From the IMG/VR virus record IMGVR_UViG_3300044970_001318, positions 1-37,722 of that record: DNA of 37,722 nt; one strand, written 5' to 3'. Every line of letters starts with the position of its first letter. Within the stretch, counting starts at the first letter, position 1. This DNA is from a virus. The notes beneath the pieces were generated by a model that searched no databases, had not been told where the DNA came from, and saw only the letters and a program-made list of their open reading frames with translations. A program made the position numbers and the translations under genes. Positions 1,116 to 30,214 of this stretch are shown in pieces.

Positions 1116-3860
1116 ATGGGACTTTCATATGACCCCGTAGCTAAAAAGTGGAATATAGGCTATGAAAAAATCGACAATAAAACAGATTATCCTACTAACT
1201 TGCAAACTGATGCACCTACAAATTTACCAACTGATTTGTCAACCAAAGTAACCAGACAGGTTTACGTTACTAAGTCCAGGAATGTTCCTGCACAGGAAAC
1301 GTATTCTCAATATGATTCTTGTGCAAGCAAGGACTACAAAGGGGTTTGTCAGCCAGGCTTTGTTCAAAAAACAAGGACGGTAACTAAAACTGAATATTAC
1401 GGTGAATGGGAAAATCAGTATGACGCAGCAACGTCTCAGCAAAATCAAACTACAAATGAAAACAACGCAAAAACAAATGCTCAAAACGCAAAAGCAAATG
1501 AAATAAACGCAGCCACAAATCAATTGAACATTAAATTAAACAAAGAAAATACGGATACAAATTTAAAGAACACAAAGTTAAATCAAGCCTATGACAAAAC
1601 AGTCAGTGCCGCTTCTGGTACCAGGGGAGGTGATTACGTTCAAATGCGTGATCAAATTCGAAAATTAGATGTAGACGCAACAACAAAAAGTGCACTAGAA
1701 AATTACTACAAAGCTTTCTACCAAACTGAAAAATTACAAAGATGGGACTCGGCACTTGGAGCCAAACCTCAATACGGAGACTTTGATCCTAAATATTACA
1801 AACAACAAAATCCAGTAGTTGAGGCTGCGTGGAAAGCTGCTGTAGCTAATGACGATATTGATATCACTCAGCGATATGGTGAGAACGCCTATTATCTGCA
1901 GCACTACACATCTCAAGGTAAACCATCTGGTTTAAGGGGCAACGCTCCAGAGCAAACAGCTGCCGCCCAGGTCTATGCAGAAAAAAAACCTACAGATGCA
2001 GACTTGCAACAGGTTAGGAATCTTCAATTGGGTGTGGACACCAATACACAAACCCAACGTTTACTGAATATTCCTGAGATTGCTGCTGAGTGGGAAAAGG
2101 CTAAGAATGGGGATCCTTACTGGGCAAAACAAGCAAAGGAAAAGTATTTGAACCCGGATAAGCCGGATGAATTTGCGGCGTTATTTAGATTGTCTGAGCG
2201 TCCAGAAGATCAAAAGGTGCGTTTACAGTACAACGCAAATACTGGCTATGGCATAACAGAGCTAGAGGATGCAGTTAATGAAGCTGTTGGCGAAAAAGCA
2301 ACAGTTGATGTCAAGCGGTTTGGAGCTTTGACGCAAGACGCATTGAAGACCACCATCGCCGAAATGAAAAAAGCAAAAGGCAAGGAACAAGCCTTGAGTC
2401 TTTTGGGTGGTTTTGGTGGTTTCAGTGAGGTCATGGACATCAACAAGGAGCTGACAAACAGCATCATGGGCGACTCTGGAGTTGGTGGCATGCTTTCCTT
2501 TATGTCAGGAGGCAAAGCCGAGGAGTCCTTGGAGAAAAGCCTGCAAAATATCACAGGCGTAAAGAACAATGTTACGTATAACTGGCAACAATGGTTTGAT
2601 AATACTCTTAAGAAAAAGTACGAACAAGACCTGGAATTAGGCTATACAGCGGGAGAAGCAAAAGAAGACGTAAAGATACAAGCTGACTTTGCACGCAACT
2701 TCATTGATAAATATTTGACTCCAAGATTTAACACTTCGCGTTCAATGGATGAATTTGTTGAATACTTGGATGTGCGTCAAGAAGAACAAAACCCGTTCCA
2801 GACGCAAGACATGCTAAACGCAACAAATCAAGTTGCAAACTTAAGAGCGCAGATGTACCTGGACCAGCTAAAGGCATCTTCTGATCGTTATTTCAACTCA
2901 GACTTTTACTTCAATCCAACAGGAGACAAGGCAAGGACTTCTAACTACGCAGAACAAGCGTCAACCGTAGCCTCTGACTGGGAAGCAGCTAAGAAAGGTG
3001 ATGCGTACTGGGCGCAGCAGGCCTATCGTTTTGGTGTGGACCTTAACGACAAGGACGCCTTTGCACGTATGCATTTCCAGGTCAAGGGTCAGGGACGTGG
3101 TTACGATGGGGCAGAGGACATTCTCAACGCTGGCAAGGTGCAAGATGAGATCTACTCAAATATTCTTCCCGCACTTAAGGATGAAGCCTTAAAGCAAGGT
3201 ACTGTCTTTGGTCAGTTTGTAACACCAGAAGAGTTTACCGATGAGTTACTAAAGGGTCTGGATCCAGCAGATAAAGATTCCTGGAACGAAGTTCTTCAGC
3301 GGTACGGTATTACAGATTTCAAGGGAACTGTTGAAGAGCTTAAAGAATATGTAATGGAAACATTGCGCACTGGATCAGCACAAAAGATTAGGGAAGAATT
3401 GAAGTACTTAAATGAAAAACGCAAGAAGCCAACACAACAGGTTCTTGGTTTAACTTATATTGAACGTCCAGAAGACTATAAAGACCAACAGGCAAAGCCA
3501 TCGACTGAGTTATATAAAACATTTCAGTCTGCTGGATACCAAGGAACTGAGGACGAGTTTTACGAAAAGTTTTTCCCTGATCTAGACCGCTCAGAGCAAA
3601 CCTTACTAACAAAAGCAGGCTCTGACTCGGCACTTAAGGTACAAGGATTAGACATGAGTGACCCATTCGCCTCCCTTGGTACTATTGAAAGTTTCTTTGG
3701 TGAAGAAACACCATCTAAAAAAGAAACCAAAACAACTAAAGATGCTGATATGGATAGTTATTTTAAACTGGGATTAGATGACGACGAAGATGAAGACTAC
3801 AAGTCCAAAACCGGTAGTCAGATTCTTGGTGAGTTCACGTCCATGTTCAAGGGTCTCTGA
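1116..3860 (+). CDS. Large protein (914 aa) with an Asn-core coiled coil, probable virion component
   Basis: Not recognised as a named family. Residues 1-100 are Thr/Asn-rich. Residues 110-156 form strict heptads with Asn at every a and d position (spacing 3-4 for 14 positions), which predicts a polar-core coiled coil, probably a trimer. The rest is helical and charged, with two copies of a short module centred on GDPYWAKQA (about residue 331) and GDAYWAQQA (about residue 628). The end is acidic (DDDEDEDYKSK) and then FTSMFKGL. Its length, lack of enzyme motifs and overlap (TGATG) with a small basic protein suggest an internal or tail virion protein. This is inference from context. Confidence 0.75.
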   Translation: MGLSYDPVAKKWNIGYEKIDNKTDYPTNLQTDAPTNLPTDLSTKVTRQVYVTKSRNVPAQETYSQYDSCASKDYKGVCQPGFVQKTRTVTKTEYYGEWENQYDAATSQQNQTTNENNAKTNAQNAKANEINAATNQLNIKLNKENTDTNLKNTKLNQAYDKTVSAASGTRGGDYVQMRDQIRKLDVDATTKSALENYYKAFYQTEKLQRWDSALGAKPQYGDFDPKYYKQQNPVVEAAWKAAVANDDIDITQRYGENAYYLQHYTSQGKPSGLRGNAPEQTAAAQVYAEKKPTDADLQQVRNLQLGVDTNTQTQRLLNIPEIAAEWEKAKNGDPYWAKQAKEKYLNPDKPDEFAALFRLSERPEDQKVRLQYNANTGYGITELEDAVNEAVGEKATVDVKRFGALTQDALKTTIAEMKKAKGKEQALSLLGGFGGFSEVMDINKELTNSIMGDSGVGGMLSFMSGGKAEESLEKSLQNITGVKNNVTYNWQQWFDNTLKKKYEQDLELGYTAGEAKEDVKIQADFARNFIDKYLTPRFNTSRSMDEFVEYLDVRQEEQNPFQTQDMLNATNQVANLRAQMYLDQLKASSDRYFNSDFYFNPTGDKARTSNYAEQASTVASDWEAAKKGDAYWAQQAYRFGVDLNDKDAFARMHFQVKGQGRGYDGAEDILNAGKVQDEIYSNILPALKDEALKQGTVFGQFVTPEEFTDELLKGLDPADKDSWNEVLQRYGITDFKGTVEELKEYVMETLRTGSAQKIREELKYLNEKRKKPTQQVLGLTYIERPEDYKDQQAKPSTELYKTFQSAGYQGTEDEFYEKFFPDLDRSEQTLLTKAGSDSALKVQGLDMSDPFASLGTIESFFGEETPSKKETKTTKDADMDSYFKLGLDDDEDEDYKSKTGSQILGEFTSMFKGL

Positions 3861-4228
3861 TGTCAGACAAGCGTAAAAAGGCAGCCTCTGCCGCTAAGTT
3901 ACATAAAGATTCAATGGCATGCAACAAACCCCGACGGACTCCTGGACACCCGACCAAGAGTCATGTAGTAAAAGCATGTGAAGGGGGCGAAGAAAAAATC
4001 GTGCGCTTTGGCCAACAAGGAGTAGAGGGAGCTGGTAAAAACCCCAAGACAGCAAAAGACAAAGCCCGTAAGAAATCTTATTACGCTAGACATAATGCCC
4101 AGGATCCAAACCCAGACAAAATGTCAGCCAGGTACTGGAGCCACCGTGTGAAGTGGATGATCCTAAGTGGTATGATAATTCCAGAGTTACTTCACGCATG
4201 TCTTCACGTTGGAACTACGTTGACGTAA
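3860..4228 (+). CDS. Small basic phage protein, C-terminus probably frameshifted
   Basis: The start overlaps the previous stop (TGATG). The product is Lys-rich with KSHVVKACEGGEEKIVRFGQ, a tract of positively charged helices, and ARHNAQDPNPDKMSARYWSH followed by RVKW. I know this pattern from small conserved proteins of marine phages whose function is unknown. Family members I recall end soon after the VKW motif. Here the frame runs on for 23 hydrophobic residues that look unlike the rest, while the other frame from base 4153 reads DDPKWYDNSR, which looks like the natural continuation. A single-base loss near 4154 would explain this. An HNH gene starts inside the tail. Confidence 0.75.
   Translation: MSDKRKKAASAAKLHKDSMACNKPRRTPGHPTKSHVVKACEGGEEKIVRFGQQGVEGAGKNPKTAKDKARKKSYYARHNAQDPNPDKMSARYWSHRVKWMILSGMIIPELLHACLHVGTTLT
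4171..4176 (+). promoter_or_regulatory. -10 element TATGAT for the HNH gene at 4198
   Basis: TATGAT ends exactly 21 nt before the ATG at 4198. It lies inside the end of the upstream gene, as expected for a mobile gene that brings its own promoter, and it decides the start of the HNH gene. Confidence 0.5.
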
Positions 4229-4620
4229 AGTGCACAAGCTGTCAAGCGGAGGGTTGTATTCGCATTGACCAATACAACCGCAAAGAAAAACAATGGACTT
4301 GTCGCTCTTGTGCTTTTTCCGGGCGAAAACTTGATATTAAAAACCCTTCTGCCAGACATGATCATAAAAAAACCGGTGCCTGGAAAAGTTATTGGAGAGC
4401 CAAAAAACGAGTTAGCGAAAATCACCATGGCGTATATGCGGACGTGCTTTTTAACTTTGAAAGTTTTGATCAATTTTGGAAAGAGTTAGGGGAAAGGCCT
4501 GAAGGCAAAAGCCTAGATCGGATAGATCCATGGGGCCATTACGAGCCTGGAAATGTGCGTTGGGCAACTCATGTAGAGCAATGCAACAACAAGAGGAGAC
4601 ACAAGCCCAAAAACTTGTAA
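4198..4620 (+). CDS. HNH-type homing endonuclease, 140 aa
   Basis: The N-terminal third is a zinc ribbon (CTSC then CRSC). The C-terminal third has SLDRIDPWGHYEPGNVRWAT followed by QCNNKRR, the signature of phage HNH homing nucleases that share a GxRPxGxSLDRID...GNCRWAT core. The same core is found at 29215-29679. The frame is open upstream to 4153, but the first 15 residues there look like the lost tail of the preceding gene, and the ATG at 4198 lies 21 nt after TATGAT, so I chose 4198. It sits between two small basic phage genes and has probably invaded there. Confidence 0.85.
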   Translation: MSSRWNYVDVKCTSCQAEGCIRIDQYNRKEKQWTCRSCAFSGRKLDIKNPSARHDHKKTGAWKSYWRAKKRVSENHHGVYADVLFNFESFDQFWKELGERPEGKSLDRIDPWGHYEPGNVRWATHVEQCNNKRRHKPKNL

Positions 4621-4646
4621 AATGGTAGTGCCTCACTCAACTGCAA

Positions 4647-4772
4647 GTGGCAAAACCCAAGTCCAGCTTAGCTCTCAAGCCTGAGTCCAAACCTAAGAAA
4701 ACTCGCCAAGGCCAGGGGCAGAACTCACTGCCTAGTCACGGACGCAAAAAGATGCGCGGGCAAGGTAAGTAA
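4647..4772 (+). CDS. Very small basic protein, 41 aa, GTG start
   Basis: A GTG-started frame encodes a Lys/Gln-rich peptide (AKPKSSLALKPESKPKKTRQ, then GQNSLPSHGRKKMRGQGK). It has no hydrophobic segment. Small peptides ending in a GRK...RGQGK motif occur beside basic structural genes of cyanophages, as far as I recall. It is likely a nucleic-acid-binding or virion peptide. The start codon is not certain: an in-frame CTG lies two codons upstream, and a TAG stop rules out any start beyond that. Confidence 0.6.
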   Translation: MAKPKSSLALKPESKPKKTRQGQGQNSLPSHGRKKMRGQGK

Positions 4773-4778
4773 ATTGTG

Positions 4779-4784
4779 TATGAT
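4779..4784 (+). promoter_or_regulatory. -10 element TATGAT for the lysozyme gene
   Basis: TATGAT ends 23 nt before the lysozyme ATG at 4808. The transcript would begin just before or within the hairpin at 4786-4807. Confidence 0.45.
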
Positions 4785-4785
4785 T

Positions 4786-4807
4786 GGGAGTAACTATAGT
4801 TGCTCCC
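4786..4807 (+). promoter_or_regulatory. Leader hairpin abutting the lysozyme start codon
   Basis: GGGAGTAAC and GTTGCTCCC pair over 9 bp (one G-T wobble) around a TATA loop, and the right arm ends on the base before the ATG. In RNA this would bury the ribosome-binding region. The loop and right arm also contain CTATAGT, a second -10-like hexamer. Confidence 0.5.
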
Positions 4808-5446
4808 ATGTCAGATCTTTCTCGTGCGATTAACTTAATTCGCAAATACGAGGGCTTTAACGAAAAAGCCTACCCAGATCCGATTACGGGCGCAGAACCT
4901 TACACAATTGGATACGGAACTCAATTCTACCCAGATGGATCTGCCGTTAGACGTGGGCAGTTCTGTACCATGGAAAAAGCACTGGAATATCTATTCAATG
5001 AAGTCAGTATTATTGAAACGCAGTTAGATAAATTAAACCTTGGCCTTGACAGCGTGATGCGTCAGGCATTGATTTCGTTCATTCATTCGATTGGCTGGGA
5101 GCCTTTCCTTTACAGTCACGTAATTGACTGTGTTGAAAACGAAGACTTCTGTACAGCAACAGAAGAAATGGGCCAGTGGATTTTTGATGCCGACCATCAC
5201 GTTGTTGGTAACCTACTGGAACGACGCAGAGAGGAAATCAATTTGTTCCTGGAAGACTTGGATGAAAGCCCTTTGCCCTCCAGTGAAATCCTCCTTGGTG
5301 CCTTCAGGAATTATTCAGCTTCTCAGCATGAGATCAACGCGATTCAGAAGCTGGAAGAACGGATCAGTCCTTACATCCTTTCTGAATTTGCCAATGAGTT
5401 TTGCAGTGGCAACAACCAATGGCTAGACAATCCTGCAAAGGACTAA
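4808..5446 (+). CDS. Phage lysozyme (GH24, T4-lysozyme family), endolysin
   Basis: It cleaves the glycan strands of peptidoglycan, for lysis or entry. The catalytic triad of T4 lysozyme is visible: Glu15 in RKYEGF, Asp24 in YPDP and Thr33 in YTIGYGT, in the right order and spacing apart from a short insertion. At 212 residues it is longer than T4 lysozyme (164), with an extra acidic C-terminal region of unknown role. No signal peptide or membrane segment is seen. I chose ATG 4808 over the in-frame TTG at 4784 because the upstream bases form the hairpin leader. A second, different lysin is at 14816, so this one may be virion-associated. Confidence 0.88.
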   Translation: MSDLSRAINLIRKYEGFNEKAYPDPITGAEPYTIGYGTQFYPDGSAVRRGQFCTMEKALEYLFNEVSIIETQLDKLNLGLDSVMRQALISFIHSIGWEPFLYSHVIDCVENEDFCTATEEMGQWIFDADHHVVGNLLERRREEINLFLEDLDESPLPSSEILLGAFRNYSASQHEINAIQKLEERISPYILSEFANEFCSGNNQWLDNPAKD

Positions 5447-23623: not shown

Positions 23624-23696
23624 CGGGGGTTGGGTTGTGTGTCTTCTTATCCTACGGCCGCCAATCCAGGAGAGCCATCAAGATTTTGTTAAATCA

Positions 23697-23879
23697 CTAA
23701 GTCTTATTAGACTCATACGAAAAATTCCACGGATTCTTTTTATCGACCTCATCCCATTCGTCCATCAGTCTGTTGTAAACATCTACAGGATCCTGCCTAG
23801 TCTTAATGCAAGACGAAGTTGCGACAGACCAGGCAATACGCTTGCGTCTCTCCATGGGATCATCAGTATTCCAGGGCAT
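23697..23879 (-). CDS. Hypothetical protein, 60 aa
   Basis: Three bases separate its ATG from the nuclease stop. It is helical and charged (MPWNTDDPMERRKRIAWSVA, DVYNRLMDEWDEVDKKNPWN), with no recognised domain. It lies between the nuclease and the primase genes in the same operon. Confidence 0.6.
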   Translation of the reverse strand: MPWNTDDPMERRKRIAWSVATSSCIKTRQDPVDVYNRLMDEWDEVDKKNPWNFSYESNKT

Positions 23880-23882
23880 GGC

Positions 23883-24737
23883 TCAAATCAAATCAGGGTC
23901 ATAAACATTGCAGCGTTCGATTTGGCTGTAGTACTCAGCTACGACTGCCAGCCAGTCACCCCTCAAAGAATCCAAAAACTTCCTGGAGATCTTGAAGACT
24001 TGAGTGCGGACAGGCGTTGAAACCAAGATGGCTGCCTGCTGGACCCGCATCCCAAGAGTCTGCTCAATACCAAGGTCGTACGCAGCAAGTTGCTTGCACG
24101 TCTTTTTAAATTTCATGTGCCCACCCAAGATGTCGCGCCACTCCATCGACCCCTTCTCCAGGTCCTTGGGCCACTTGCGACTGTAGGGTTTGACGCTGGT
24201 CTTAAGGTCGGCAAGCGTCAGTTTGTTCCCCACAACACCAATGATGTCAGGCGAGCCAACCCAAGCCCTGCCCTCTTCATCGTGTGCCCACACCCTACCG
24301 ATACCATCGTCTGATAGCGTGAATTGATGCTTGTCGAGCAGAGGGGTTTCAGCCCACAGCACTTCGTCAAATTGATCGAGGATCCCTGGCATACCCGACC
24401 AAAAATCCTGGTAGTCAGGCGGGATCTCAGGGCTCTTGTCCCCTTTCAGGTAGCACTCCATGCCATAGTGGATAGCTGTACCGCGCTCAGCAGCTGCCTC
24501 TTTTACGCCTGGATTGTTTTTACTCCACATCTCCAGCTTCCGTTTGTTTGCTTCGGATGCTGTCTCTGAGATAATTGTTGTGACCGATGGCGCCGGCCCT
24601 GTTACAAACGGTGTATGGTAGTGTCGCTTTCCGTTAATTGTAATACGGGCGGGGCGGCTGTTCAGCTCCCGCATCAACTCTGGCTGCTCTTGATATTTCA
24701 GCGACCATGGATCGCTTGTTTCAATTCTAGCAACCAT
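23883..24737 (-). CDS. PD-(D/E)XK nuclease (RecB/Cas4-like), 284 aa
   Basis: The nuclease core motifs are visible in order: ERGTAIHYGME (His90), GSPDIIGVV (Asp164), LTLADLKTS (Asp177 and Lys179) and KQLAAYDLGIE (Gln216, the RecB-type QxxxY motif). Such phage proteins act as exonucleases in recombination or in degrading host DNA. It heads the replication operon on the minus strand, with a -10-like TAGGAT 23 nt upstream that overlaps the promoter of the divergent hli operon. Confidence 0.88.
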   Translation of the reverse strand: MVARIETSDPWSLKYQEQPELMRELNSRPARITINGKRHYHTPFVTGPAPSVTTIISETASEANKRKLEMWSKNNPGVKEAAAERGTAIHYGMECYLKGDKSPEIPPDYQDFWSGMPGILDQFDEVLWAETPLLDKHQFTLSDDGIGRVWAHDEEGRAWVGSPDIIGVVGNKLTLADLKTSVKPYSRKWPKDLEKGSMEWRDILGGHMKFKKTCKQLAAYDLGIEQTLGMRVQQAAILVSTPVRTQVFKISRKFLDSLRGDWLAVVAEYYSQIERCNVYDPDLI

Positions 24738-24759
24738 TGAAGGTTTTGTATATTGCTGT

Positions 24760-24766
24760 TATCCTA
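24760..24766. promoter_or_regulatory. Overlapping divergent -10 elements (hli operon and nuclease operon)
   Basis: TATCCT (24760-24765, plus, extended by TG) ends 24 nt before ATG 24790. TAGGAT (24761-24766, minus) ends 23 nt before ATG 24737. The two boxes share five bases, so the two operons probably compete for polymerase. Confidence 0.45.
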
Positions 24767-24789
24767 GCGTATATGCCTAGCAATCGACC

Positions 24790-24894
24790 ATGGAAAACCA
24801 AAGGCGAACAATCATGTGGCTGATTGCAGCTATTGTTCTTGTCGTAGGTCTTGACGCCTACCTGTTTGCGGCCGAAGTTTTTAAAAACCAATGA
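24790..24894 (+). CDS. Single-pass membrane peptide, 34 aa
   Basis: MENQRRTIMWLIAAIVLVVG then LDAYLFAAEVFKNQ: a basic start, one hydrophobic helix (residues about 9-28) and a short polar end. Its stop overlaps the hli ATG (ATGA), so the two are probably made together. The size resembles small thylakoid or photosystem subunits, but I cannot assign it to one. Confidence 0.65.
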   Translation: MENQRRTIMWLIAAIVLVVGLDAYLFAAEVFKNQ

Positions 24895-25130
24895 ACAAAG
24901 CAGTGCTCTGGATCCAAGGCTGGTACAACTGCCTGTCCTGGATCATCCAAGAAATTATCAGCCGCTACTGCCCAGACCTCAATATTGCAACCTTGCCAAC
25001 CCATCCTGAGGATTACCTCTGGTATGCCGAGCGTTTTAATGGCCGCGCCGCTATGCTTGCCGTGATTTTTATCCTGCAATGGGAGTTTGTGACCCACAAA
25101 TCCATCTGGGAGTTTGTAGGTGTCTATTAA
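24891..25130 (+). CDS. hli: High-light-inducible (Hlip) chlorophyll-binding protein
   Basis: The Hlip helix is clear: YAERFNGRAAMLAVIFILQW, with Glu47, Asn50 and Arg52 as the chlorophyll-binding ExxNGRxAM core, then a second Glu (EFVTH). Phage Hlips are thought to protect the photosystem during infection of cyanobacteria. At 79 residues it has a longer N-terminus than typical. It follows a membrane peptide by ATGA overlap and overlaps the next GTG-started gene by 11 bases, giving a compact operon. Confidence 0.9.
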   Translation: MNKAVLWIQGWYNCLSWIIQEIISRYCPDLNIATLPTHPEDYLWYAERFNGRAAMLAVIFILQWEFVTHKSIWEFVGVY

Positions 25131-25281
25131 TCTCACCAGGTTTTATTACGACATTGATGACGAAGAGCGCACTGGCCTCCTGAATCAATGCGTAGTTGAC
25201 GATGTTGAGACGATTGAAGCCGATGCGTTTGAATTGGAGTTACAATCCAAGGATATTGAATACATTCGAGTCGACCTGTGA
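25120..25281 (+). CDS. Small acidic protein, 53 aa, GTG start
   Basis: A GTG frame overlapping the hli end by 11 bases encodes SINLTRFYYDIDDEERTGLL then NQCVVDDVETIEADAFELEL and a short end. It is acidic and beta/alpha, with no known motif. The stop overlaps the methyltransferase GTG start (GTGA). Coupled position in the hli operon supports translation. Confidence 0.6.
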   Translation: MSINLTRFYYDIDDEERTGLLNQCVVDDVETIEADAFELELQSKDIEYIRVDL

Positions 25282-25874
25282 CCCAAGCAACGGACTGGAC
25301 CACGTATTTTTCCACGGTCAAACCCAAGCTTGGCGCTCGGGCTGACGGCTTCCAAAAAATTTTTCAACACCTAAATGGAGTCAAAAATCCCATCATTATT
25401 GAGACGGGTACATACCGAGAGGTAGACAATTACACAGGCGATGGCTGCTCTACCCTCCTCTTTGACGAATACGTTAGTGCCCATGGTGGCCAGCTGATTT
25501 CTGTTGACATTGACCCGAATGCTTGCGAGCTAGCCAGCTCAAGTACCAGCAGCAACACTGAAGTTATTGAGTCAGACTCGGTTGAGTTCCTTGGTACTCT
25601 GGAGGGGCGCTGTGATCTGTTGTACCTAGACTCGTACAACATCACCGACTGGAACAATGATTGGGAGCCGGCTGCTCACCACCTCAAAGAGTTGTTTGCC
25701 GCCAAGAATATCATCAACCCTGGCACCTTAATCATTGTTGATGACAATAGAAAATCTTTGCAAGGCAAGCGGCTGGGCAAAGGCCGTTTGATTTATGAAC
25801 TCATGGAATCTCTTGGCATCCCTTGTTTTATTGATGCTTATCAAGTGGGCTGGATCTGGGAAGAATTACAGTAA
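25278..25874 (+). CDS. Class I SAM-dependent methyltransferase (TylF/Methyltransf_24-like)
   Basis: The Rossmann motifs are: IIIETGTYREVDNYTGDGCS (motif I with the E-x-GTY turn), GGQLISVDIDPNA (the acidic residue that binds the ribose), DLLYLDSYNI (motif IV) and GTLIIVDDNR. The substrate is unknown; sugar or small-molecule O-methylation is typical of this fold. GTG start overlaps the preceding stop. It closes the hli operon. Confidence 0.8.
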   Translation: MTQATDWTTYFSTVKPKLGARADGFQKIFQHLNGVKNPIIIETGTYREVDNYTGDGCSTLLFDEYVSAHGGQLISVDIDPNACELASSSTSSNTEVIESDSVEFLGTLEGRCDLLYLDSYNITDWNNDWEPAAHHLKELFAAKNIINPGTLIIVDDNRKSLQGKRLGKGRLIYELMESLGIPCFIDAYQVGWIWEELQ

Positions 25875-25904
25875 TCCCTACCATTTTTTTAACTTATTCA
25901 CTAG

Positions 25905-25940
25905 ATATGTTAAGAAAAACGTGACATACTTAACATATCA
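25905..25940. promoter_or_regulatory. Perfect 11-bp inverted repeat (operator-like or recombination site)
   Basis: GATATGTTAAG (25905-25915) and CTTAACATATC (25930-25940) are perfect inverted copies 14 nt apart. They lie just upstream of a TAGAAT box (25952-25957) and of the gene at 26000. Likely a dimeric regulator site; a tyrosine-recombinase crossover with two arms is also possible. Confidence 0.6.
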
Positions 25941-25999
25941 TTTATGTGGATAGAATGCCACAAGTAATTCTTTTACCACGAAACCCCAAAGGTTCTGAA

Positions 26000-26206
26000 A
26001 TGACTCTTTCCAACCAGGTCAAACAAGCCCTTGATAATGCTACGGCAAGTCTGCGGGAAGCCCTTGCTTTTGCTGCACGTACCGAGCATCCTGTAACGAT
26101 CAGCACATTGACCGACACCCTGGTACGCCTAGAGTCAATCGAGTCGATCGAGGAAATCATGCACAAATTTGGTAAAGAGCACGACATCCCCACCAACTTT
26201 GGCTAA
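26000..26206 (+). CDS. Small conserved phage protein, 68 aa
   Basis: MTLSNQVKQALDNATASLRE then ALAFAARTEHPVTISTLTDT and a helical end. I recall cyanophage proteins with a closely similar start (MTLxxQVxxALxxAxxSLRxALAFAARTE), function unknown. An in-frame ATG at 25955 and GTG at 25946 exist, but the conserved part begins at 26000. Confidence 0.7.
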   Translation: MTLSNQVKQALDNATASLREALAFAARTEHPVTISTLTDTLVRLESIESIEEIMHKFGKEHDIPTNFG

Positions 26207-26369
26207 GTATCACATTCCAACGGAGGCTGAACGCCTCCAAAATTATTTTTGGGAACTTGAATCAAAGATCCCAAACCCTGGTAAGGACTGGGCACGGTCT
26301 GCCAAAGAATGTAAGTGGCTTAAAATATTAAAAGAAAGAGAACTAAAGTCGAGTGGCGCAGGACGATAG
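26199..26369 (+). CDS. Small hypothetical protein, 56 aa, TTG start
   Basis: The best start is the TTG at 26199 (AKYHIPTEAERLQNYFWELE), overlapping the previous stop by 8 bases. It is basic and helical with two Trp-rich stretches (DWARSAKECKWLKIL). The start codon is uncertain. No family known. Confidence 0.5.
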   Translation: MAKYHIPTEAERLQNYFWELESKIPNPGKDWARSAKECKWLKILKERELKSSGAGR

Positions 26370-26451
26370 CAAGTATTCCAAACCGGAATTGCGTGAGCGC
26401 ATCAAAGATCGTGTGATGGCTGGCTCTAAGGGTGGTAAGCCAGGTCAGTGA
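26353..26451 (+). pseudogene. Truncated first copy of a small basic gene (DUF5872-like 5' fragment)
   Basis: A GTG frame encodes AQDDSKYSKPELRERIKDRV then MAGSKGGKPGQ and a TGA. It matches the start of the second copy at 27088 (MAEDKSKYTKPDLRERIKNK...GGKPGEWS) but stops where that copy and the remembered family read W-S-A-R-K. The break falls inside the Trp codon (TG-A), right before the endonuclease promoter. I infer that endonuclease insertion cut this copy. Confidence 0.65.
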
Positions 26452-26452
26452 T

Positions 26453-26479
26453 TTTGTGCTATAGTAAGAAAAGCACAAA
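26453..26479 (+). promoter_or_regulatory. -10 TATAGT within an 8-bp inverted repeat, endonuclease VII-like gene
   Basis: TTTGTGCT (26453-26460) and AGCACAAA (26472-26479) are perfect inverted copies. TATAGT (26460-26465, extended by TGC) lies between them and ends 21 nt before ATG 26487. Position and symmetry fit a promoter with an overlapping operator or a leader hairpin. Confidence 0.55.
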
Positions 26480-26486
26480 CCAACCA

Positions 26487-27095
26487 ATGCAAAAACTTTG
26501 CCGGGAATGCGGAACTAGAAAGCCGTATGAAAATTTTGCAAACAAAGGGTACAACTCAGCCGGCAATATAAAAAGAGACAGCGTATGCAAGGATTGCAGA
26601 TCTTTGATCAACCGTCGATTTAGATTATTGTATGGAGCAGACGGTCAAAAACAATGCTCTAAATGTGCTCATTATTTAGATTGGGATTGCTTTAGAAGAA
26701 GAAAGCAAGACGGTAAATTATATCTTCATTCTTCATGCAAAACTTGCAATAAGTTAAGTTGGGATAAATGGGTAGATAACAATAAAGAACATTATCAAAA
26801 AGTTAAAAAACAAGGGCAAGATTTATTACATCACAATCACAAAAAATATGAGCGCAGAGGAATAACAAAAGAGCAATACAATATTGTGTTTGAGGCCCAG
26901 GAAGGTTTATGTGCAATTTGCCAAGAGCCTCCCAAGGATAAACAATCTTTAGCCATGGACCATAATCATCAAACCAATGAGTTCAGAGGTTTATTGTGCA
27001 AAGAGTGCAACAGAGCCCTAGGTTTATTTGGTGATAATATAGATGTATTGACAAACGCAGTCACTTATCTTAAAGAACGAGGAAGTTATGGCTGA
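26487..27095 (+). CDS. Recombination endonuclease VII-like HNH nuclease, 202 aa
   Basis: Two N-terminal zinc knuckles (CRECG...CKDC and CSKC...CKTC) precede a T4 endonuclease VII type core: LCAICQEPPKDKQSLAMDHN then HQTNEFRGLLCKECNRALGL and FGDNIDVLTNAVTYL. Phage homologues include Holliday-junction resolvases and homing nucleases. Here a truncated gene copy lies on one side and a second copy on the other, so a homing role is likely. I chose ATG 26487 over the upstream ATT-rich frame because it follows TATAGT by 21 nt. The end overlaps the next ATG by 8 bases. Confidence 0.88.
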   Translation: MQKLCRECGTRKPYENFANKGYNSAGNIKRDSVCKDCRSLINRRFRLLYGADGQKQCSKCAHYLDWDCFRRRKQDGKLYLHSSCKTCNKLSWDKWVDNNKEHYQKVKKQGQDLLHHNHKKYERRGITKEQYNIVFEAQEGLCAICQEPPKDKQSLAMDHNHQTNEFRGLLCKECNRALGLFGDNIDVLTNAVTYLKERGSYG

Positions 27096-27399
27096 AGACA
27101 AAAGCAAGTACACAAAACCAGACCTGCGTGAGCGTATCAAAAACAAAGTTATGCGGGAAGGCCGTGGGGGTAAACCGGGAGAATGGTCGTAGCCGTAAGG
27201 CTAACTAATTATTTCGGCACGTAAAGCTCAACTTGTAGCACAAGAGTATAAGTCGGAAGGTGGCGGATATAAAGGAGGTAAAGGTGAGAAGCAAAAGTCT
27301 TTGGAGAAATGGGGTAAAGAAAAGTGGCAAACCAAGGACGAGTACGAAAAACGTTCTAAGGCTAAAGCTGCAGCCAAGAGGTATAAAGATGGCGAGTGA
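27088..27399 (+). CDS. Small basic protein with a 27-nt stop-containing gap (possible bypass site)
   Basis: The first part (27088-27189) encodes MAEDKSKYTKPDLRERIKNK...GGKPGEWS and meets TAG at 27190. After a 27-nt gap (27190-27216, ending in a second TCG) the same frame resumes at 27217 with ARKAQLVAQEYKSEGGGYKG and runs to TGA at 27397. Joined at the TCG codons, the product of 95 residues matches a family I remember as DUF5872-like (GQWSARKAQLVxxEYxxxGGGY). The joined protein is very basic. The downstream frame stays open for 61 codons and overlaps the next ATG by 11 bases, which suggests it is still used. Alternatives are a split gene with an ATT start or a pseudogene. Confidence 0.55.
27190..27216 (+). 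other. Coding gap with stop-hairpin and matched TCG codons
   Basis: The take-off codon TCG (27187-27189) is followed at once by TAG. TAGCC-GTAA-GGCTA (27190-27203) is a perfect 5-bp stem with a GNRA-type loop that contains the stop. The matching TCG sits at 27214-27216. The gap has three in-frame stops (TAG, TAA, TAA) and a length divisible by three. An AAGG lies at 27197-27200. Confidence 0.55.
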
Positions 27400-27598
27400 T
27401 AAAGCAATTCAACCTGGCTACACCAAGCGTTACTTGCCGGAAAAGGCATGGGCCTCTTTATCCAAGGAGGAAAGAGAGGAGACTGATCGCAAGAAACGTG
27501 CTGGTAGTAGGGAAGGAAAACAGTTTGTACCTAACACAGAAACAGCAAAGAAAGCTGGTAAAGCAGCCCGTGCATCCAAACGTTACAAAGATAAATAA
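27389..27598 (+). CDS. Small basic protein, 69 aa (C-terminal domain of the split family)
   Basis: ATG 27389 overlaps the preceding stop by 11 bases. The product MASDKAIQPGYTKRYLPEKA then WASLSKEEREETDRKKRAGS and REGKQFVPNT carries the RYLPxxAW...KKxxGSxxGKQFVxNT motif that, in the family I remember, follows the GGGY domain within one polypeptide. So the family is divided here between two overlapping genes. Function unknown; the Lys/Arg content suggests DNA or capsid binding. Confidence 0.7.
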   Translation: MASDKAIQPGYTKRYLPEKAWASLSKEEREETDRKKRAGSREGKQFVPNTETAKKAGKAARASKRYKDK

Positions 27599-27604
27599 CT
27601 CACG

Positions 27605-27610
27605 TATACT
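27605..27610 (+). promoter_or_regulatory. -10 element TATACT for the gene at 27632
   Basis: TATACT ends exactly 21 nt before the ATG at 27632. Confidence 0.55.
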
Positions 27611-27631
27611 TAATAAAGATTCCTGATTATC

Positions 27632-27802
27632 ATGGAAAAGAAAAAGGCTATTCCCCCCAAGAAAGCTGTGCCGCCCGCAAAAGGTAAAGCTGCTCCCCCT
27701 GTCAAAGGCAAAGGCGGTGCATCTGCTAAACAAACTGAAGCCCGCGACAAGTTTAAAGAAATGATTGCAAAGAAGAAAGAAGCTGCTGCCAAAAAGAAAT
27801 AA
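27632..27802 (+). CDS. Lys/Ala/Pro-rich histone-like protein, 56 aa
   Basis: MEKKKAIPPKKAVPPAKGKA then APPVKGKGGASAKQTEARDK and a Lys-rich end. Nearly a third of the residues are Lys, with Pro/Ala/Gly linkers as in histone H1 tails, so it probably coats nucleic acid, perhaps in the virion. The assignment comes from composition only. It has its own promoter box and is followed by the non-coding region. Confidence 0.65.
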   Translation: MEKKKAIPPKKAVPPAKGKAAPPVKGKGGASAKQTEARDKFKEMIAKKKEAAAKKK

Positions 27803-27812
27803 GGTATCGCGC

Positions 27813-27905
27813 TATACTTTCAGTGCTCAATACACACGTCTCGTCCCGTAGGTATTGGCGGTAAGTAGTTAGTCTTAGTCCTGGTCTGAGCAACCAGGAT
27901 TTTTT
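27813..27905 (+). ncRNA. Small non-coding RNA unit (promoter, about 80-nt RNA, terminator)
   Basis: TATACT (27813-27818) has no start codon at the usual 21 nt, and no frame longer than a few codons follows. The unit ends in a terminator: TCCTGGT (27879-27885) pairs with ACCAGGA (27893-27899) and is followed by TTTTTT (27900-27905). The transcript would begin near 27825. No known RNA family is recognised. It might be regulatory or antisense. Confidence 0.5.
27879..27905 (+). terminator. Rho-independent terminator of the small RNA
   Basis: 7-bp stem TCCTGGT/ACCAGGA with a 7-nt loop, extendable to 9 bp by G-T and A-T pairs, then six Ts. It is placed for plus-strand transcription from the TATACT at 27813 or from the gene at 27632. 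Confidence 0.75.
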
Positions 27906-27908
27906 GTG

Positions 27909-27914
27909 TATAAT
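27909..27914 (+). promoter_or_regulatory. -10 element TATAAT upstream of the structured region
   Basis: A consensus TATAAT directly after the terminator, with no start codon in the next 21-27 nt. Transcription would start near 27921, at the structured RNA region. Confidence 0.5.
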
Positions 27915-27920
27915 AAAATT

Positions 27921-28137
27921 GATAGAGGTCAGGTCCCTGTGCGCGTTAGGCACATAGCCTAGAAGGCGACACACCTGATCCATCACACCACCCCTATTGC
28001 TCTGTCGGTAGGGTGCAGCCAAGTCCTCTAACACTTGGTTTGCGTGCTAAGTCCTGGATAACCAGGCCAGGGGGATGGCCTCTCCTGCATGTAACACCCC
28101 CTATGCCTCTCAACGATGCACAAACCTGGGGGTCACT
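27921..28137 (+). ncRNA. Structured non-coding region with several stable hairpins
   Basis: No believable frame is present. Hairpins seen: GGTCAGGT/ACCTGATC (27927-27934 with 27973-27980) closing TGTGC/GCACA (27938-27942 with 27950-27954) and GCCT/AGGC (27957-27967); CCAAGT/ACTTGG (28019-28038); CCTGG-ATAA-CCAGG (28053-28066); and ACCCCC with GGGGGT near 28095 and 28127. The first set forms a three-way-junction-like fold. I cannot match it to a named RNA family. With the tRNA-like element it explains most of the gene-free stretch 27803-28242. Confidence 0.45.
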
Positions 28138-28213
28138 CACCTGGTCCGAGACAATTGGATAGTACGGTTACTGCCGCTGCAGGACGATGTAGGTTCGAAT
28201 CCTATCCAGGTGC
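28138..28213 (+). tRNA. tRNA-like element without a normal anticodon arm
   Basis: CACCTGG (28138-28144) and CCAGGTG (28206-28212) form a perfect 7-bp acceptor stem. GTAGG-TTCGAAT-CCTAT (28189-28205) is a good T-arm that joins the acceptor directly, and TTGGATA gives a D-loop-like GG. The total of 76 nt is right for a tRNA. The D stem has a mismatch and no 5-bp stem with 7-nt loop and U33 can be drawn; CTGC-CGCT-GCAG forms instead. CCA is not encoded. It may be a degenerate tRNA, a mimic or an attachment-type sequence. Confidence 0.4.
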
Positions 28214-28215
28214 TT

Positions 28216-28221
28216 TATACT
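28216..28221 (+). promoter_or_regulatory. -10 element TATACT for the gene at 28243
   Basis: TATACT ends exactly 21 nt before the ATG at 28243, just after the tRNA-like element. Confidence 0.55.
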
Positions 28222-29214: not shown

Positions 29215-29679
29215 ATGAGCACGCAACGACACGGGCATTCTTTAAATGGAAAACGTTCTTTGACACACTCTACTTGGCACAACATGAAAACTCGTTGCCA
29301 AAATTCAAACACAAAAGCATATCGAAATTATGGCGCAAAAGGAATAAAAGTTTGCAGTAGATGGGATATATTTGAAAACTTTTTAGAAGATATGGGAGAA
29401 AGACCCGGACCAAACTATTCGCTTGAACGTATTGATTCAAGCAAAAACTATTGTCCCGAAAACTGTAAATGGGCGACGCGCACGGAACAAAACAGAAATC
29501 GCTCCATGTGCATTCTTATTACTATCGACGGCAGGCGTCAAACAGTAAAAGAATGGGCTATAGAGTTAGGTATAAATCGTCAAACAATTGAACGCCGTTT
29601 AAAACTAGGCTGGTCACATTACGATGCGGTAATGCAACCAGTTATTTTAGGTCAAAAATTCAAGAAGACCTCAGGGTAG
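29215..29679 (+). CDS. HNH/AP2-like homing endonuclease, 154 aa
   Basis: Begins STQRHGHSLNGKRSLTHSTW (start chosen by promoter spacing), then MKTRCQNSNTKAYRNYGAKG and IKVCSRWDIFENFLEDMGER, the metal-binding part, and YSLERIDSSKNYCPENCKWA then TRTEQNRNRS, the HNH core. The C-terminal part (WAIELGINRQTIERRLKLGW) is a helix-turn-helix that would recognise the target. Same core as the nuclease at 4198. The end overlaps the Dps gene tail to tail by 20 bases. Confidence 0.9.
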   Translation: MSTQRHGHSLNGKRSLTHSTWHNMKTRCQNSNTKAYRNYGAKGIKVCSRWDIFENFLEDMGERPGPNYSLERIDSSKNYCPENCKWATRTEQNRNRSMCILITIDGRRQTVKEWAIELGINRQTIERRLKLGWSHYDAVMQPVILGQKFKKTSG

Positions 29680-30214
29680 CTTTGATTTGCCAAGCAGCTT
29701 TAAAAGCCTGGCCCACGAGGTCAGCCATGTAGTTCTGGATGTCAATAGCCCCTACCTTGGCGGCCACAGGCTCTAGTTTCTTGGCCTTCATGCCAAGCTC
29801 CTCAAGGTTCTTGTAGTATACACCAAGCATTTCAGTGCCTTTATAGGAAGTCACTGCTTGCATGGGAGGAGCAGCATCCTTGAGACCACACCCACACATG
29901 GGCATCAGATAATCCATGCTACGGACAAACTCAGCAAGGGTATCGAACTGCTCAAGGTGCGCTTCGTACTGATCTTTGAGGAAGGCATGGACGCCCAAGA
30001 AGTTACCACCCTCGTAGTTCAAATGGATCAGATGACTCTGGGTCTCTAGTTCCTTTAGGTAGGCGCAAAGAGAGATGCACTGCTGGATGAAAGCACCCAC
30101 ATCACCACCAGCCTTGGACTTGGCAGGAGCTTTTGGCTTGTCCTGGGGCTGAGGAACAGCTTGAAGCTGAGGGGCTTCAACAGCCTGGTACTGTTGGGGT
30201 GCAGGGGTATACAT
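29660..30214 (-). CDS. Dps/ferritin-like protein, 184 aa
   Basis: The four ferroxidase residues of Dps are present with exact spacing: His64, His76, Asp91 and Glu95 (SHLIHLNYEGGNFLGVHAFL then KDQYEAHLEQFDTLAE), equal to His31, His43, Asp58 and Glu62 of L. innocua Dps. The fold would oxidise iron with peroxide and store it, or protect DNA. The first 38 residues are a Pro/Gln/Lys-rich tail, which in Dps proteins can bind DNA. The length of 184 is within range. Adjacent -10 TAAACT 20 nt upstream. Likely protects DNA in the infected cell under light stress. Confidence 0.8.
   Translation of the reverse strand: MYTPAPQQYQAVEAPQLQAVPQPQDKPKAPAKSKAGGDVGAFIQQCISLCAYLKELETQSHLIHLNYEGGNFLGVHAFLKDQYEAHLEQFDTLAEFVRSMDYLMPMCGCGLKDAAPPMQAVTSYKGTEMLGVYYKNLEELGMKAKKLEPVAAKVGAIDIQNYMADLVGQAFKAAWQIKATLRSS

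Follow-up and report, generated by a model that had tools for sequence, protein, structure and literature searches.

Probable programmed ribosome bypassing within a mobile homing endonuclease cassette of a DUF5872-like phage gene

How can a phage gene be expressed as one protein when a stop codon and a short gap separate its two halves? The question is raised by a small DUF5872-like gene at positions 27088-27399 of the virus record IMGVR_UViG_3300044970_001318, the whole 37,722 nt of which were analysed and are here called the window. The gene reads MAEDKSKYTKPDLRERIKNKVMREGRGGKPGEWS, then TAG CCG TAA GGC TAA CTA ATT ATT, then SARKAQLVAQEYK and onwards to TGA, such that 24 nt with three in-frame stops (TAG, TAA, TAA) lie between two TCG codons, the second of which follows 27 nt after the first. 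A first-pass annotation had proposed a bypass resembling that of T4 gene 60 on the basis of a TCG-TAG take-off, a 5-bp hairpin with a GTAA loop starting on the stop, the second TCG 27 nt on, the three stops, 61 sense codons after landing and an 11-base overlap with the next gene. All of these features were confirmed at exact coordinates (Table 1), while its description of the 5' peptide as very basic was overstated, the 34 residues holding 10 Lys/Arg and 6 Asp/Glu by count. Comparative evidence supports the bypass interpretation itself, through a persistent stop hairpin, matched TCG codons and gaps of all three frame classes, and we consider it probable (roughly 0.86) that the gene is expressed by programmed bypassing of the gap within a mobile homing cassette, in a system that resembles T4 mobA/gene 60 but has a shorter gap.

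Relatives were collected with a pattern ending GAA/G-TGG-TCG-TAG-C, which gave 79 loci and looks no further than TAGC. Together with loci from family and endonuclease searches and the window, these make 65 distinct rows, 42 of which have the family 5' half. The gap proved to be a conserved feature of related phages: 41 of these 42 rows (window included) are distinct gap-bearing genes with a readable landing site and an open 3' half, and the remaining row, L149, is degenerate. The landing pattern demanded a Ser-Ala/Gly-Arg-like start, such that the first codons of the 41 gap genes are partly selected. Intact homologues (sets of 60, 65 and 51) are a sample, mainly from the best 80 of 598 relatives.

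A cassette inserted into a DUF5872-like gene

The joined product of the two halves matches phrog_17747 (E 4.2e-19) and scores 25.4 bits (E 2.2e-5) against DUF5872 (PF19197); because this lies under the gathering cut-off of 27.5, we call the gene DUF5872-like. It is present uninterrupted in Synechococcus phage S-EIV1 and, in a shorter form, in Pelagibacter phage HTVC033P (loci L220 and L219), and Trp-Ser-Ala-Arg is one of the family's invariant blocks in alignments of 15 and 16 rows. Structure prediction for the intact protein was weak (predicted local distance difference test, pLDDT, 68; predicted template modelling score, pTM, 0.46), with the junction falling between two helices. Since its primase is 63% identical over 98% to that of S-EIV1, the window is probably a fragment of an S-EIV1-like cyanophage.

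The same region without an insert is found in locus L022, where positions 1303-4098 align to window positions 23659-26450 (92.3%) and positions 4100-4825 to window positions 27214-27939 (94.2%). Because the flanking stretches align on both sides, the insert can be delimited to the base, and its point of entry is the Trp codon (codon 33) within Gly-Gln-Trp-Ser-Ala-Arg. The orphan host 5' half that was left upstream owes its TGA to the junction after 26450, and differs from the empty allele by 6 nt and no amino acid over 96 nt. Downstream, 17 of the 186 nt of the 3' halves differ, all without amino-acid change, and the window and L022 are sisters in the 3'-half tree. A count of orphan decay (105 departures from family-conserved residues in 31 'orphans' versus 44 in 40 cassette 5' halves) was set aside and is not used as evidence, since several 'orphan' rows are not orphans and most departures in the 5' halves are one cassette-specific change at residue 26.

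The endonuclease encoded within the cassette scores 80.7 bits against Endonuclease_7 (PF02945; gathering cut-off 23.6). The tail of its gene likely holds the ribosome-binding site of the replacement 5' half, and the inverted repeat in its leader may act as a promoter. Many endonuclease leaders retain an inverted repeat with an extended -10-like TGTGCTANNNT despite changes at other bases.

A tree built from the 3' halves of 41 gap and 51 intact rows has the gap rows scattered over it, with 13 changes counted, at least seven of them forced by starred branches. A full-length endonuclease lies just upstream in 30 of the 41 gap genes and is cut by the contig end in two (L016, L150); it is reduced to remnants in seven (L015, L084, L114, L119, L127, L130, L145) and was not found within 1.5 kb upstream in two (L100, L131). 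All nine gap genes without the enzyme have both the hairpin and an open 3' half, with a ratio of nonsynonymous to synonymous polymorphism (pN/pS) of 0.284. That the hairpin is kept without the enzyme argues for a decoding role rather than for homing alone. The seven remnants retain the last codons of the enzyme, which likely hold the ribosome-binding site of the 5' half there too. The gap is also present in all 37 loci that have this enzyme together with a 5' half that can be read, as self-protection would predict.

Distant relatives of the endonuclease are found without a bypass gap. One (L383, 1480-1965) stands directly after ...GGTGAATGGTC of a DUF5872-like gene, and two others (L381, L382; about 450 bases viewed on either side) follow GGGYRD and appear to split a DUF5872-like gene further downstream. 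Because all three sit in DUF5872-like genes, this nuclease lineage seems to target this gene. No further bypass cassette was recognised after the enzyme in 36 loci (38 of 79 were inspected, two being known cassettes).

Conservation of the take-off site, hairpin and landing codon

The take-off TCG and the stop TAG are present in 41 of 41 gap genes, and the take-off codon is invariant while neighbouring codons vary. Searches that did not require TCGTAGC returned the same TCG-TAG in 12 of 12 family loci with a stop at this place and in 37 of 41 loci found via the endonuclease, the four exceptions being a contig that ends inside the enzyme (L193) and three distant enzymes (L197, L198, L200). With any take-off codon admitted and either TAG or TAA as the stop, a scan found no family member with another take-off/stop pair. 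The seven loci which that scan returned with Gly-Lys-x-Gly-Glu-Trp fixed upstream (L212-L218) are unrelated.

The stem TAGCC/GGCTA is found in 40 of 41 gap genes and always closes a GNRA tetraloop (GTAA 25, GTGA 11, GGGA 2, GCAA 1, GAAA 1). In the window, the motif TAGCCNNNNGGCTA has one copy, compared with a mean of 0.03 in 100 shuffles, three of which had one. Landing is on TCG in 39 of 41, whereas the same Ser codon in 65 intact homologues is TCT in 20, AGT in 19, AGC in 10, TCA in 7, TCG in 7 and TCC in 2; the Fisher test of this difference ignores shared descent, and inheritance of the cassette ends must account for part of the excess. Three codons before take-off, Gly is encoded by GGA or GGG in all 41, as opposed to 16 of 65 intact genes, which creates a Shine-Dalgarno-like GGRGAR. 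This sequence might contribute to pausing, and cassette descent would explain the codon bias as well. The 5' half is itself conserved among gap genes.

Gap lengths are 24 nt in 14 genes, 21 in 12, 25 in seven, 26 in five, 20 in two and 30 in one, which amounts to 27, seven and seven genes by class modulo 3 and thereby to all three frame relations. The longest gap (L119) has a tandem ACTA repeat in its linker, suggesting that gap length may change by slippage there.

A pairing seen with RNAalifold (40 rows) could bring the two codons together around the hairpin, the take-off G-UCG with the landing CGGC (alignment A1, columns 75-78 and 113-116). It is near-invariant, with one pair broken in 2 of 40 rows, and covariation is uninformative. 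Upstream of take-off, the same program gave weak pairings of 3 bp and 2 bp, one pair in each double-changed in some rows.

Wider scans returned nothing that could be added to the family. The hairpin scan TCGTAGCCGNRAGGCTA of viral contigs (59 loci) gave 11 new loci (L201-L211) with no gene or endonuclease adjacent, which look like chance, and a take-off hairpin scan of genome contigs gave no match. A loose scan for TGGTCGTAG-gap-TCGGC (at least 120 stretches) held no family member among the 79 places checked (L223-L301).

Translation of the 3' half and rival explanations

Downstream of the gap, the landing frame has no stop over 48 codons in 41 of 41 genes, while the other two frames are stopped in 39 and 41, and pooled pN/pS exceeds 1 in those two frames but is 0.234 in the landing frame. 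Ser-Ala-Arg-Lys-Ala-Gln is unchanged after the gap in all 41 with varying codons, although the landing pattern partly selects for it. Selection after insertion can be seen in a clade of 13 3' halves with no intact allele among the 51 sampled (support 87, not starred), where pN/pS is 0.167 and pN is 0 in the first seven codons. As its gaps measure 25, 26 and 30 nt, indels have shifted the frame relation without closing the 3' half or releasing it from constraint.

These values bear on the possibility that the gap is an insertion scar, in which case the gene would be a pseudogene, the hairpin a by-product of recombination and the 34 residues a remnant. A degenerate copy does exist: L149 (900-1258) is a degenerate or error-rich cassette with no recognisable endonuclease just upstream. 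However, random decay of the downstream frame, looked for among the relatives, is confined to that row, the other 41 of 42 being open from the Ser codon. Constraint on the 3' half is maintained overall, in the clade without intact members and in the nine genes that have no endonuclease, and between window and L022 the 3' half differs only at synonymous sites. We regard a scar as very unlikely.

A further group of explanations would have ribosomes enter the 3' half by other routes. A stop in the landing frame lies inside the gap in 39 of 41 genes, and therefore neither read-through nor a frameshift before the UAG would reach the 3' half. Between the last in-frame stop and landing there is no ATG, GTG or TTG in 39 of 41; 21 have none there or in the first 28 codons, and nine have none even in 45 codons.

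Several observations nevertheless weigh against bypassing. In the two genes with 20-nt gaps (L063, L071) no stop closes the landing frame from before take-off through the hairpin, and an out-of-frame ATG or GTG is present, such that expression there could instead rely on an internal start or on a frameshift ahead of the stop. Among the 41 genes, 25 (that of the window being one) have a rare start, ATT or ATA, in the stretch from the last in-frame stop to landing, and 15 have ATG as codon 7 of the 3' half. One gene (L011) has no stem, two (L084, L160) land on TCT, and L149 has indels in its 5' half and at landing, with the rest of its 3' half open. The stem is without any compensatory change and covariation is silent on it, and folding of a single 101-nt stretch of the window is unexceptional (z -0.5); the weight of the hairpin comes from its conservation in relatives rather than from single-sequence fold statistics. 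Neither a T4-like 5' stem-loop nor a distinct nascent-peptide motif such as a KKYK-type signal is established, and the basic KYTKPxLRERIK stretch occurs in intact homologues too. Finally, the gap-bearing relatives are all uncultured contigs. Among 50,697 phage records there were four matches to the joined protein, none gapped in the matched part, and the endonuclease at 60% identity or more was in none of the records.

The first of these points suit a split gene, in which a 34-residue 5' product and a 3' product arise independently, the latter through re-initiation or an internal start after the stop, and then associate. Such initiation could also draw on RAGG, formed by loop and stem, which lies as a Shine-Dalgarno-like sequence upstream of landing in 40 of 41, and in L381 and L382 the 3' part of the apparently split related gene has its own ATG. 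Yet no start codon is common to all, since 14 of 41 lack ATG, GTG, TTG, ATT, ATC, ATA and CTG before landing, and in nine of these 14 a TGA touches the landing codon. Separate products would also leave unexplained why the residues after the gap are fixed, partly selected as they are, within the invariant Trp-Ser-Ala-Arg block. We judge a split gene to be improbable. The first-pass annotation had held that a scar or a split gene explains the locus equally well; the occurrence of all frame classes, the hairpin, the matched TCG codons and the lack of a shared start disfavour separate translation as well as making a scar unlikely.

Lastly, a micro-intron or programmed excision might remove 20-30 nt from RNA or DNA before translation, and the precise boundaries and conserved hairpin would also suit such an event. 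Gaps of this size, however, fall below the length of a group I or II intron, and no intron family reached threshold in the window, where only an abiF RNA reached its own. Excision has no need of a UAG at the base of the hairpin or of matched Ser codons, both of which bypassing requires. We know of no phage or cyanobacterial enzyme that excises such short gaps, and we hold excision to be as implausible as a scar.

Table 1. Features of the interrupted gene and its cassette in the window
Feature	Position	Strand	Remarks
Interrupted DUF5872-like gene	27088-27399	+	ATG at 27088, TGA stop 27397-27399
Replacement 5' half, 34 codons, MAEDK...GEWS	27088-27189	+	Final codon TCG 27187-27189 is the putative take-off
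Stop TAG immediately 3' of take-off TCG	27190-27192	+	
Stem-loop TAGCC-GTAA-GGCTA, base on the stop UAG	27190-27203	+	Stem in 40 of 41 gap genes
A/T-rich linker of the gap	27204-27213	+	Length and sequence differ among relatives
Putative landing TCG and 3' half of target gene, 61 codons plus stop	27214-27399	+	Landing codon 27214-27216
Next small basic gene	27389-27598	+	ATG at 27389; 11-base overlap with 3' half
Inserted mobile cassette, 763 bp (leader, endonuclease, replacement 5' half, gap)	26451-27213	+	L022 alignment
Orphan host 5' half, GTG start, ends GGKPGQ-TGA	26353-26451	+	Left upstream by the insertion
Endonuclease VII-type gene, 202 aa	26487-27095	+	Profile match; stop overlaps start of replacement 5' half
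Inverted repeat in endonuclease leader, TTTGTGCT / AGCACAAA, containing extended -10-like TGTGCTATAGT	26453-26479	+	Read from letters

Elsewhere in the window, a ferritin-like domain protein is encoded at 29660-30214 on the minus strand (PF00210, E 1.5e-9). The abiF RNA match lies at 28097-28133 (52 bits; region noted 28097-28217), directly followed by a tRNA-like cloverleaf at 28137-28215 with the T-arm GGTTCGAATCC (fold z -1.1), for which ARAGORN makes no call. The 79-nt cloverleaf stretch is 95% identical in L003.

A proposed mechanism and its relation to T4 gene 60

We propose the following mechanism of how the two halves might be joined. It starts from what the sequences establish, namely the anatomy of the locus, the empty site, the scattered distribution, the conserved take-off, stop, stem and landing, and selection on both halves. 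From these we infer the hop itself and its efficiency, the placement of the hairpin in the A site and the protection of the cassette from its own enzyme. A homing endonuclease cassette would enter Trp codon 33 of the DUF5872-like gene, supplying its own 5' half that ends in Trp-Ser(UCG), followed by a 5-bp GNRA hairpin built on a UAG, by an A/T-rich linker and by the landing UCG. Having translated the 34 codons, the ribosome would pause with peptidyl-tRNA-Ser on UCG and the UAG hairpin in or at the A site. It would then release the UCG and slide until its tRNA pairs again with the next UCG, a codon-to-codon distance of 23-33 nt and of 27 nt in the window. GCN-CGN/AGR would thereafter be read as Ala-Arg and the family motif Gly-x-Trp-Ser-Ala-Arg restored. 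The gap may stop the rebuilt gene from recreating the endonuclease target, thereby leaving the cassette immune to its own enzyme with little harm to the host gene. Because direct fusion of the halves might rebuild the target site, a gap that protects would fit here as in T4, where self-protection has reportedly been shown for mobA by Bonocora and colleagues.

The closest comparison is with T4 gene 60 (AF158101), in which the take-off GGA is followed by TAGCC-TTCG-GGCTA within an annotated 50-nt bypass region, the window having TCG followed by TAGCC-GTAA-GGCTA. Common to both are a UAG right after take-off, a TAGCC/GGCTA stem with a stable tetraloop on the UAG, and an endonuclease gene upstream, and take-off and landing codons are matched here as TCG/TCG in 39 of 41 genes and as TCG/TCT in two. 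Given a 5-bp stem starting on TAG, the two further pairs would match T4 by chance about 1 in 16 times, and the stem letters are therefore no proof on their own, the common layout being what counts. In T4, a small stem-loop forms in the A site from the mRNA that follows take-off, and this loop and the nascent peptide are together credited with preventing premature termination (PMC11194080). A review describes a homing endonuclease insertion in the T4 topoisomerase gene and suggests that the gap may derive from an intron protecting against cleavage (PMC5009743), and the insertion is given as the origin of the gene 60 bypass layout (PMC5009743, PMC3014915).

The differences are nonetheless considerable. 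The T4 system takes off from Gly GGA, hops 50 nt and has a UUCG loop, whereas the cassettes described here use Ser UCG, hops of 23-33 nt and GNRA loops. Pairing in T4 extends, by folding, into the take-off codon, which here stays outside the stem. The T4 insertion splits gene 39 from gene 60, while here a DUF5872-like gene is the target and the cassette carries a duplicate 5' half; moreover, the present system spans dozens of contigs and all three frame relations.

Many short bypassed inserts are likewise known as byp elements in Magnusiomyces mitochondria, with 81 instances (PMC5009743) that are mobile according to a title among the references of that review. Those elements are mitochondrial and occupy many genes, in contrast to a phage system with one gene site, a cassette endonuclease and a UAG hairpin. 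The Streptomyces phage Hau3 terminase and a 29-nt hop in Prevotella loescheii, likened here by description only, are single suggestive cases of natural bypass (PMC5009743). For homing endonucleases in or beside genes, too, some alleles are empty and others occupied, the distribution is scattered and some lineages have lost the enzyme. Unlike the usual ones, the cassette here also carries a replacement 5' half and, if our interpretation is correct, a decoding signal.

A 2010 paper regarded the bypassing of gene 60 as a feature apparently peculiar to T4 (PMC3014915), and a 2016 review treated the other bacterial and phage cases as suggestions only (PMC5009743). The titles and abstract openings that we searched, a literature with most subscription journals outside it, contain no bypassing in cyanophages or in a DUF5872-like gene; DUF5872 itself is named there in connection with an algal virus genome. 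It appears fairly likely that T4 gene 60 is no one-off but belongs to a class of homing cassettes that bring along a 5' exon as replacement, with a hop signal that works in any frame and joins this exon to whichever allele is entered, that the UAGCC-tetraloop-GGCUA core arose independently in T4 and S-EIV1-like cyanophages, and that the 20-30-nt gaps offer a ready-made series for studying landing choice. Annotation probably records such genes as a short open reading frame and misses the 3' half. If the interpretation is correct, the cassettes would be a second, family-wide case of bypassing, in which dozens of variants with a minimal hairpin and gaps of at most 30 nt would show which signals are essential. 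They would also offer a test of whether bypassing evolves as protection of homing cassettes against the enzyme that they encode, and would provide a compact hop element for reporters.
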